The notes beneath the pieces were generated by a model that was not told where the DNA came from, ran no database searches, and saw nothing but the letters and a program-made list of their open reading frames with translations. From Halorubrum aethiopicum (lineage in GTDB: Archaea; Halobacteriota; Halobacteria; Halobacteriales; Haloferacaceae), in assembly GCF_001542905.1 (NCBI RefSeq), contig NZ_LOAJ01000001.1, forward strand, positions 992,001-1,056,000: DNA of 64,000 nucleotides, written 5' to 3'. Position numbers and translations under genes: made by a program. Positions 20,143 to 59,722 of this stretch are shown piece by piece. Numbering within the stretch: the first letter of the stretch is position 1; every line of letters begins with the position of its first letter.

Positions 20143-20282
20143 GCGCCGGGAACGGCGGGGCGGTCGACGGCGGAGGCTCGGTTGGGCGTCTCTCGTTCGG
20201 AACGAGATCGCATGAGACGGCCGCTATATTTCGAGTGCTTGTAGAACGGGTGCTTCGATGGGGATTAAGGTGAGTAGAACAG

Positions 20283-20637
20283 GATCGTTGCTGGCGCGAT
20301 GAATTCTTTCAAAGCCCCAGCCGACTCCGGTCGAGGGCCTCGCTGCGCTCCTCGCTCACTTCATTCGCTGCGGTGTCGCCGGCGGCGGAGCCGCCGGCTG
20401 CCCGTGGCGCGTCGCGCCACGCTGCTTGCGTCGGCCGTCTTCCCGGAGTCGGCTGCCCCTTTGAGTCCCACCCCGCACAACCCCGCACCTCACACCTCCC
20501 CAGCCTCGCTGCTCATGGTTCGAAAATCGGAGATTTTCGTCATCACGAAAGACCGGAGGTCTTTCGAACGACTTCGTTCGCAGCGTCCCTCGCGGGCTCC
20601 TCGCGAGCCGATGGCTCGCTCGGAGGCGCGCCACCGC
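20283..20637 (+). repeat. Dispersed structured element, copy A
   Basis: One of four related non-coding elements in the window. Fixed segments in order: left end GATCGTTGCTGGCGCG, CAAAGCCCCAG, TGCCCCTTTGAGTCCCACC (20454-20472), CACACCTCCCCAGCCTCG, GCGTCCCTCGCGG and right end GGCGCGCCACCGC (20625-20637). Between them are three self-complementary arms. Arm P1 pairs 20319-20330 with 20443-20454 (12 bp) and CAAAG (20310-20314) with CTTTG (20459-20463), leaving a C-rich internal loop. Arm P2 closes with GCTGC/GCAGC (20508-20512/20580-20584). This copy's left palindrome is degraded (GCGATGAATTC). No credible protein is encoded. It lies between converging genes. Confidence 0.85.
20516..20572 (+). repeat. 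Nested double-hairpin module (in copy A)
   Basis: Two perfect hairpins joined by a fixed linker. Hairpin 1 (20521-20539) is CGAAAATC-gga-GATTTTCG; hairpin 2 (20546-20566) is CGAAAGACC-gga-GGTCTTTCG; the joint reads TTTCGTCATCACGAAA and the borders TGGTTCGAAA and TTTCGAACGAC. The same module, with different but still perfectly paired stems, sits at 50185-50245. Here it is in arm P2 of the host element. Confidence 0.85.
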
Positions 20638-20892
20638 AATCGGTCGCTCACTCCTTCGGCTGGAGTGAGCATCCGCGAGCGAAGCGAGCGGTTCACCGAC
20701 GGAGCCGTCGAAGACGGCGGAGTCGGCTTTTTCCCTCCAGGTTTTTCGAGGAGTGGTTCCCGAAGCGAACGCAGTGAGCGAGGGCACCCGACGATGAAAA
20801 AGGTGGCTGTGCTGACCGGAGTCGGACTCGAACGTACCTCTCACGGGAGATTTCAACGGGGGATCACGGACGAGTCAGTCGACGCCGGTCGG
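20638..20892. other. Non-coding flank of copy A with further hairpins
   Basis: 255 bases without a credible gene. The first ~20 bases (CGCTCACTCCTT) match the flank of copy B. Hairpins: GCTCACTCC/GGAGTGAGC (20646-20654/20662-20670) and GCCGTC-gaa-GACGGC (20704-20718). GGAGTCGGCT at 20719-20728, followed by TTTTT, repeats the right strand of arm P1 and could pair with 20319-20328 instead. Confidence 0.6.
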
Positions 20893-29587: not shown

Positions 29588-29810
29588 AAGGAGTGAGCGA
29601 TCGCCGGAGCGGTGGCGCGCCGGTGAGTGCTCGGAGGGCACGAACCCGACCGCGAGGGACGCGGCGAGCGGTGAAACCGCGAGCCGCGAGGCTGGGGAGG
29701 CGTGAGGTGCGGGGCGGTTGCGGTCGGGTGGGACTCAAAGGGACAGTCGCGAGCGCGTCTTCGCCCTCGCGATTGGGGCTTTGGCGGTGGTCACCGCGCC
29801 AGCAACGGTC
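29588..29810 (-). repeat. Dispersed structured element, copy B (shortest)
   Basis: Minus-strand copy, the most compact at about 220 bp. Right end GCGGTGGCGCGCC at 29609-29621; core GCGAGGCTGGGGAGGCGTGAG (complement of the fixed segment) near 29687-29706; left palindrome GCGGTG-gt-CACCGC near 29784-29797. On the plus strand arm P1 pairs AGTCGCGAG (29745-29753) with CTCGCGATT (29766-29774), plus CAAAG/CTTTG at 29736-29740 and 29779-29783. Arm P2 closes with GCGGC (29661-29665) and GCCGC (29683-29687), a compensatory change from copies A and C. Lies between converging genes. Confidence 0.85.
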
Positions 29811-49937: not shown

Positions 49938-50300
49938 GCGGTGGCGCGCCTCCGAACGGCCGAAGGCCGCGAGGAGCCCGCGAGGGACGCTGCGAACGCA
50001 GTGAGCAGCGAGGCTGGGGAGGCGTGAGGCGCGGGGCTGTGCTGTTGCGGGGTGGGATTCAAAGGGGCAGCCGCGATTCCCGCGAGCGTAAGCGAGCGGG
50101 AAGTCGAGAGACGAAGTCTCTCGGAAGGACGAAGCTCGGCGACGCAAGCACCGCAGAAACGAGCGCAGCGAGCGACGAGGAGCGTGGTTCGAAACGGCAG
50201 AGCCGTTTCGTCATCACGAAAGGCGCTTTGCGCCTTTCGAACGACAGCGAGCCGCGCGAGTCCTCGCGACTGGGGCTTTGGCGGTGTTCACCGCAGTTGT
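49938..50300 (-). repeat. Dispersed structured element, copy C (longest arms)
   Basis: Minus-strand copy. Right end GCGGTGGCGCGCC at 49938-49950, fixed segment GCGAGGCTGGGGAGGCGTGAG near 50009-50028, GGTGGGATTCAAAGGGGCAG at 50051-50070, and left palindrome GCGGTG-tt-CACCGC at 50281-50294. On the plus strand arm P1 closes with CAAAG/CTTTG (50060-50064/50276-50280) and AGCCGCG/CGCGACT (50069-50075/50265-50271), then branches into several triloop hairpins, for example CGAGAGAC-gaa-GTCTCTCG near 50105. P2 closes with GCTGC/GCAGC (49989-49993/50005-50009). No credible protein. Between the converging fbp and a small membrane gene. Confidence 0.85.
50185..50245 (+). repeat. Nested double-hairpin module (in copy C)
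   Basis: Same borders and linker as the module in copy A (TGGTTCGAAA, TTTCGTCATCACGAAA, TTTCGAACGAC), same strand although the host elements are in opposite orientation. Stems differ but pair perfectly: CGAAACGGC-aga-GCCGTTTCG (50190-50210) and CGAAAGGCGC-ttt-GCGCCTTTCG (50217-50239). Here it lies in arm P1. Confidence 0.85.
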
Positions 50301-59025: not shown

Positions 59026-59099
59026 GGGCTCGTGGTCTAGCTGGTTATGACGCGGCCTTTACAAGGCTGAGGTCGGCGGTTCGAACCCGCCCGAGCCCA
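59026..59099 (+). tRNA. tRNA-Val (anticodon TAC)
   Basis: Cloverleaf can be drawn by hand: acceptor GGGCTCG/CGAGCCC, D-arm with AGCTGGTTA, anticodon stem CGGCC/GGCTG with loop TTTACAA (anticodon TAC, valine), and T-arm GGCGG/CCGCC with loop TTCGAAC. Discriminator A at 59099; CCA is not encoded. No intron. It is followed at once by an 11-bp inverted repeat and by duplicated copies of its own 3' end. Confidence 0.93.
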
Positions 59100-59345
59100 T
59101 ACCCGCGGCGAGCAACTCCGCGAGCCGCGGGTATGGCGCGGGTTCGAATCAGGGAGCGGGAGGTGAGCGAGCACCGCGAGCGAACGGGAGCGACCGTGGT
59201 TCGAACCCGCCCGAGCCCGTTTCTGGGACGAACGAAGTGAGTCACAGAAATGTATGCGAGGCGGGTTGAATTCTATCGGTCGCGCGCAGCGAAGCGAGCA
59301 CGTCCGATTTCGGTTCGAACCCGCCCGACCCCGGTTCGACCCCTC
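59078..59345 (+). repeat. Repeated tRNA-Val 3'-end fragments (possible integration scars)
   Basis: TTCGAACCCGCCCGAGCCC, the T-loop to acceptor end of the tRNA, occurs in the gene (59080-59098) and again at 59200-59218. A diverged copy ending CGACCCC is at 59314-59332, a GTTCGACCCC remnant at 59335, and a weak GGGTTCGAATC at 59136. The main units are about 120 and 114 bases apart. Immediately after the tRNA, ATACCCGCGGC (59099-59109) pairs with GCCGCGGGTAT (59124-59134). No integrase lies nearby. Repeated tRNA 3' ends usually mark attachment sites of integrated elements. Confidence 0.75.
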
Positions 59346-59387: not shown

Positions 59388-59722
59388 GATCGTTGCCGGC
59401 GCGGTGAACGCTCTAAACCTTCAGCCGCTCGGCTCTACATGGTTGCTGACGTGGTGAACACCGCCAAAGCCCCAGCCGGGAGGACTCGCGCACCTCGCTG
59501 CGGTCCTCAGTCGCTCGCGCTGCTCGCTCCCTGCGGTCCTTACATCGGTGGGCTTCGTCCTCCCGGCTGCCCCTTTGAGTCCCACCTCGCACAGCACCGC
59601 CCCGCACCTCACGCCTCCCCAGCCTCGTCGACTGCCCTCCGCTTCGCTCCGGCCAGCCGACTCCCTCGCGCGGTGCCGTTCGCGGCCGCCGAGGGCGGCC
59701 GCTCACGGGCACGCGCCACCGC
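59388..59722 (+). repeat. Dispersed structured element, copy D
   Basis: Plus-strand copy. Two left ends occur in tandem: GATCGTTGCCGGCGCGGTGAA (59388-59408, over 20 bases only across the full match) and GGTTGCTGACGTGGTGAACACC near 59441-59462. Arm P1 pairs AGCCGGGAGGAC (59474-59485) with GTCCTCCCGGCT (59557-59568), 12 bp, plus CAAAG/CTTTG (59465-59469/59573-59577). The fixed CACGCCTCCCCAGCCTCG follows, then arms P2 and P3 (GGCCGCC-gag-GGCGGCC) and the right end CGCGCCACCGC (59712-59722). It lies between tRNA-Val and the metX 3' end, 42 bases from the metX stop. Confidence 0.83.

Follow-up and report, generated by a model that had tools for sequence, protein, structure and literature searches.

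In bacteria, much work has been done on extragenic palindromic repeats, of which REPIN and REP elements are mobilised by RAYTs, which are Y1-type transposases (PMC3116915, PMC2817692). Among haloarchaea, palindrome-associated transposable elements (PATEs) of Haloquadratum have been described; they are without inverted ends or target duplications and have IS605-type relatives, and haloarchaeal MITEs and SMRs are known as well (PMC3119063). In this work, we describe an archaeal counterpart of the bacterial repeats, which occurs in 72 of the 84 sampled haloarchaeal genera and reaches 194 copies per genome. The exact text of its motif was absent from a collection of 5.39 million open-access papers, and topic searches returned only reports on PATEs, MITEs and SMRs, and REPINs; an archaeal counterpart at such a scale appears to be undescribed in the open-access literature searched. 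The analysis followed up a first-pass annotation of a 64-kb stretch of Halorubrum DNA (hereafter the window), in which four copies, A to D, of a hairpin called P1 had been noted.

Like REPIN and REP elements, the repeat consists of high-copy extragenic hairpins with conserved ends and a variable middle carrying compensatory changes, and the inverted doublets of those elements have a counterpart here in genera other than Halorubrum. It differs from them in its stem of about 13 bp, its conserved 3x3 internal loop and its further conserved loops, as well as in the Halorubrum arrangement, where P2 and P3 follow a single P1. Additionally, the Y1/RAYT gene is absent from the repeat's own genome and from several high-copy relatives, and because this partner is absent, we regard the repeat as REPIN-like but do not file it as a REPIN. 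With PATEs it shares the character of a non-coding haloarchaeal mobile element defined by palindromes, including the nested insertion of small repeats. The two are nevertheless set apart by description, since inverted ends and near-duplications mark the intact Halorubrum copies, and the repeat does not depend on Y1 genes. Similar to MITEs and SMRs, the copies are short and transposase-free, and some have the inverted ends of autonomous IS5-type elements and an 8-bp target duplication; in contrast to them, the structured core is far better kept than the ends, and the same P1 occurs in genera without such ends. Finally, the repeat resembles the structured RNA families of Rfam in its multiple hairpins, covariation, invariant internal loops and purine-rich non-canonical motifs on one strand, although it has no match in Rfam 15 and its RNA form is putative. 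An Rfam scan of the window returned a tRNA as the sole match.

Architecture, distribution and genomic setting

All four P1 arms lie where the first-pass annotation had placed them and have the arm sequences quoted there. Copy A is encoded on the plus strand and begins with a 5' flank (20213..20309) that holds TATA-like boxes and a GATCGTTGCTGGCGCGRTGAA leader, as delimited by column conservation over 51 copies; these features are common to about half of the own-genome copies and form the inner part of a long terminal-repeat arm. Its P1 hairpin (20310..20463) combines a 5-bp closing helix, a CCC/CCC internal loop and a 13-bp variable helix, above which stands a long upper rod with nested palindromes inside. 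The conserved linker (20464..20506, AGTCCCACC...CCTCACACCTCCCCAGCCT) leads to the P2 hairpin (20507..20585, CGCTGC-TC...TC-GCAGCG, with a nested hairpin insert inside), the P3 hairpin (20591..20630, CGCG..TCC-TC...TC-GGA..CGCG) and the conserved 3' end of the core, CCACCGC (20631..20637). Copies B and C are on the minus strand. In copy B, the short-armed P1 occupies 29736..29783, and the linker end, P2, P3 and 3' end occupy 29609..29700; in copy C, a P1 with nested hairpin inserts inside spans 50060..50280 and the remaining parts span 49938..50022. Copy D is again on the plus strand, with P1 at 59465..59577 and the linker end, P2, P3 and 3' end at 59614..59722. The loop flanks had been quoted correctly for copies A, C and D, but in copy B the 3' side reads CTGTCCC instead of CTGCCC, and its loop is CCC/TCC. 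When up to three mismatches were allowed, the 3' motif TGCCCCTTTGAGTCCCACC gave four matches in the window against 0.01 expected.

Several other repeated sequences adjoin these copies. A nested insert of the form TTCGAAA..hairpin..CGTGATGACGAAA..hairpin..TTTCGAA, whose own arms vary and stay paired, is found at 20519-20570 within P2 of copy A and in P1 of copy C, as well as in P1 or P2 at five further loci (L015, L017, L030, L032 and L218). A second hairpin-rich repeated tail, GAGTGAGCATCCGCGAGCGAAGCGAGCGGTTCACCGACGG...TTTTTCCCTCCAGGTTTTTCGAGGAG, lies at 20655-20790 and also follows the copies at L010, L014, L016, L055, L067 and L093; it may be a separate repeat. The region 59026-59337 contains a tRNA-Val gene followed by two partial copies of the tRNA 3' end (GGTTCGAACCCGCCCGAGCCC, near 59199 and 59313), which resemble old attachment sites of integrated elements, with copy D just downstream.

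The same order of parts characterizes nearly every own-genome copy: a leader usually ending in CNCC, P1 with its CAAAG/CTTTG closing helix, AGTCCCACCC, a variable C-rich linker, CCTCACRCCTCCCCARCCT, P2, TCCCTCGCG, P3 and GGCGCGCCACCGC. RNAalifold, unaided, produced the same P2 and P3 helices and added a CGCG/CGCG base to P3. Outside Halorubrum, the form is GAAAG-CCC-C..G-CCC-CTTTC-AGTCCCACC, in which the closing pair has changed from C-G to G-C (CAAAG/CTTTG to GAAAG/CTTTC) and the CA/TG above the loop to CC/GG, while CCC/CCC is unchanged. In several of these genera, P1 hairpins occur as inverted pairs that face each other, either at a spacing of about 20-30 nt (G104, G225, G342) or across a P2/P3-like core (G058-G067), whereas Halorubrum copies carry a single P1 with P2 and P3. 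No GTAG or CGTC tag was present at the foot of P1 in the copies read, where P1 is preceded by CNCC, ACCGC, CACCTC or ACAGCCA.

In the own Halorubrum genome, TGCCCCTTTGAGTCCCACC has about 105 matches, divided 47 to 58 between the two strands, whereas the reversed control has 2. The 96 loci read in this genome contain 103 motif matches, 101 of them with a recognisable P1, and the 19-nt P1 motif is perfect at 53 places. The motif was detected in 51 of 52 Halorubrum genomes, at 1-194 copies each, and in 127 of 151 genomes of a family-level survey. Three genomes (G025, G041 and G049) have 0-1 copies, and three others (G021, G036 and G048) have 175-194. Across Halobacteria, 317 of 391 genomes contain it, with 0-2 matches per strand and genome for the reversed control, although the class-wide pattern is short and counts of 1-2 in single genomes may be due to chance. 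Among the non-haloarchaeal relatives sampled in the phylum, nearly all counts were comparable to the control. An exception is G527, a genome from this phylum but not from the haloarchaeal order, with 7 matches against a control of 0, for which horizontal spread or a misplaced bin is a possible explanation. A search of 2.9 million viral contigs gave 0 exact matches.

For 90 copies, genes were called both to the left and to the right, and each of these copies is intergenic. By rough gene calls, 27 of them lie between convergent, 51 between co-directional and 12 between divergent genes, against a baseline of 18/46/25. A function as a terminator or at convergent genes was considered and rejected; divergent spacers are avoided, but the preference for convergent ones is not strong.

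Covariation and the probable folded strand

The initial claim that P1 stems change in a compensatory manner around a conserved C-rich loop holds for a much larger sample, in which nearly every helix pair has changed on both sides. Pair counts and shuffles were used here in place of R-scape. Among 60 divergent P1 arms from many genera, 12 of the 13 upper-stem pairs change on both sides, 95.6% of cells are paired, and 343 cells are double-changed against a shuffled mean of 113. The covariation score is 0.755, compared with 0.159 after shuffling and at most 0.124 when the partners are slid. For P2 and P3 in 54 own-genome copies, 97.1% of cells are paired, 196 are double-changed against 62 in shuffles, and the score of 0.560 compares with 0.179 shuffled and at most 0.087 slid. 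In neither set did any of 500 shuffles reach the observed score; the shuffles ignore relatedness and the structures were read from the same sequences, which the slid controls and the spread over many genera answer in part. Watson-Crick pairing reaches about 90% or more at pairs 0-4 and 8-16 of 272 distinct P1 arms, with position 11 at only 77-84% in Halorubrum.

An A.C mismatch on one strand corresponds to a G.U wobble on its complement. In the four window copies, the wobble-type positions had seemed to disagree on which strand is folded, a conflict that the larger counts largely resolve. At P1 pairs 8-20 of the CCC strand, A.C outnumbers G.T by 124 to 33 (47:16 in the own genome, 60:11 in other Halorubrum, 17:6 in other genera), with positions 11 and 19 holding much of the excess, so that without both the ratio is 48:27, and 14:13 in the own genome. 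P2 and P3 give 19:4, and all three hairpins together 143:37. Because of this excess of A.C on the CCC strand, wobbles appear to be tolerated mainly on the G-rich strand.

TC/TC and CCC/CCC pair poorly on the CCC strand. On the minus-strand complement, the TC/TC loops become tandem G.A mismatches (GA/GA) and CCC/CCC becomes GGG/GGG. Predicted folding is also better on this strand: the consensus of just six arms from the own genome gave -76.2 kcal/mol as minus strand vs -65.1 as plus strand, and that of 33 arms from outside Halorubrum gave -54.4 vs -48.7 kcal/mol. Single folds of copy D gave -56.2 vs -49.5 kcal/mol for P1 and -62.0 vs -49.0 kcal/mol for P2/P3. Since the loop chemistry, the better minus-strand folds and the A.C excess agree, the folded strand is probably the G/A-rich complement of the CCC strand, as RNA or as single-stranded DNA, a moderately supported assignment.

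Mobility, terminal repeats and transposases

The intergenic site of copy B, beside a ribonucleotide reductase gene, was compared with its orthologues in thirteen relatives. It is empty in five (G014, G008, G002, G039 and G013) and filled in five others, several of them with different arms (G012, at a contig end, G035, G051, G044 and G027), while remnants persist in two (G022 and G043). In one species, the whole element and its flanking TATA-like arms are inverted relative to the others (L287, G018:C40:14900-16200). The repeat is therefore mobile, with empty, filled and inverted orthologous sites, and this coming and going of elements affects genome annotation and comparison.

Some Halorubrum copies have recognisable termini. 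A complete 588-bp copy at another site (L313 in G002) is bounded by perfect 16-bp inverted ends, GGCTCTGTTGAAATCC, and a target duplication matching at 7 of 8 positions. Two further copies (L144 and L029) have GGCTCTGTTGAAATCC-like inverted ends with 8-bp near-duplications and resemble MITEs in part. Autonomous elements that encode an IS5-family transposase (NF033579, E 1e-64) have these ends too, and perfect 8-bp target duplications flank two elements with IS5-type ends (L306 and L307). Of 212 Halorubrum copies, however, just 4 have two recognisable ends (a null with reversed patterns gave 0), and IS5 gene number is unrelated to copy number across 52 Halorubrum genomes (Spearman 0.05); in one genome (G021) with 194 copies, no IS5 homologue passed the cut-off. 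Around the paired P1s of other genera, a search for inverted ends revealed no more than 9-10 bp in common, either adjoining P1 or confined to one locus. The IS5 transposase was dropped as a general driver because of the rarity of the ends and the lack of correlation, for which reasons we also regard IS5-type ends as one vehicle and not as the reason for the conservation of the core.

A Y1/RAYT partner was dropped as well. The PF01797 family has 0 members in the own genome and in four relatives (G014, G018, G028 and G044) despite 72-105 copies, a PF01797 gene is present in a genome with 0 copies (G025), and Y1 transposase number is unrelated to copy number in the 52 Halorubrum genomes (Spearman 0.04). 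Among the Y1 and IS5 transposases of these genomes, no partner protein was found.

The GGCTCTGTTGAAATCC ends are found around other sequences too. Two elements (L298, G000:C2:31380-32205, and L299, G000:C1:1849407-1850976) have these ends, no transposase and small secreted-lipoprotein-like genes, and elsewhere the ends enclose other small genes (L303, L304 and L310). For two cargo genes between IS5-type ends, no Pfam family scored above the cut-off. IS5-type ends seem to move varied cargo in trans.

A proposed mode of action and its alternatives

We give about an even chance to a joint reading in which the family is a mobile hairpin repeat that works as a folded G/A-rich single strand and is recognised by a protein. 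The repeat family itself, with its distribution, mobility, covariation and invariant loops, is shown by the data: P1 is part of a mobile, non-coding and hairpin-rich repeat spread across haloarchaea, the arms of which evolve by compensatory change while the unpaired loops are kept. The unit is P1-AGTCCCACC-linker-P2-P3 in Halorubrum and often an inverted P1 pair in other genera. The G/A-rich strand would fold when single-stranded, forming tandem G.A mismatches and a GGG/GGG junction, and a trans-acting protein may recognise the folded shape during spread or maintenance, by analogy with the use that REPIN hairpins are thought to have. IS5-type terminal repeats have carried some Halorubrum copies without being a general explanation. 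We infer single-stranded DNA rather than RNA as the working form, and likewise the recognition by a protein and the role of the element. Somewhat short of an even chance, and thus tentative, is the fuller proposal of an undescribed class-wide family whose purine-rich strand forms a rod in which short helices alternate with tandem G.A mismatches and a GGG/GGG junction, used single-stranded (as DNA or RNA) by a partner unrelated to the Y1 transposases of REPINs.

Paired arms alone are insufficient as a sign of selection on folding, which had been claimed from the window, since template switching can re-perfect palindromes. According to a neutral alternative, such switching, together with arm-to-arm gene conversion, keeps the arms complementary, and it agrees with the very few one-sided intermediates (counted on the CCC strand), the nested palindrome inserts and the block of paired changes by which the orthologous copy-B sites of G035 and G044 differ, which looks like conversion. 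In one own-genome copy (L093, CAAAGCCCCAG..CTGGGGCTTTG), GGG has even replaced CCC on the 3' side of the P1 loop, erasing the loop and leaving a perfect palindrome. Correction of this kind should remove the loops, yet CCC stands opposite CCC at P1 positions 5-7 in about 270 of 272 arms, including genera where most neighbouring pairs differ, and the TC/TC loops of P2 and P3 are kept in 54 of 54 own-genome copies each. We regard this survival of unpaired loops beside changed helices as the chief evidence for selection on shape. Because the loops persist where palindrome correction would erase them, selection likely acts on the hairpin shape, and we consider the neutral account improbable. Invariant loops amid changing pairs provide thousands of natural variants with which to identify whatever protein or process reads the fold and to tell selection on structure from mechanical palindrome correction, with L093 as a natural loop-closed variant of P1. 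Less probable still is an ordinary IS5-family MITE, in which the ends matter and P1-P3 are passive filler. The three copies with GGCTCTGTTGAAATCC-like ends and near-duplications, and the autonomous elements sharing these ends, speak for it; the scarcity of such ends beside 53 perfect P1 motifs, their absence around the paired P1s of other genera and the independence from IS5 copy number speak against it.

Compared with these two, a dispersed family of non-coding RNA genes remains a serious rival to the folded single strand of a mobile repeat, although we hold it to be doubtful. In that case, a minus-strand transcript would fold as P3-P2-P1 with tandem G.A mismatches and be bound by a protein, and mobile elements would be only its carriers. 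The covariation of all three hairpins, their purine internal loops on one strand and the better RNA folding of the minus strand are in keeping with such genes, whereas the missing Rfam match and the 100-190 divergent copies, with inverted copies and inverted pairs, look more like mobile DNA. TATA-like boxes flank the core at a distance of 20-25 nt and face inward from either side (L313 and orthologues), but of the two sides in the own genome, the one that would drive plus-strand transcription has the better box. Consistent with an RNA form, G-U makes up 6.2% of helix pairs in 28 tRNAs from the same loci and about 3.5% on the P1 minus strand.
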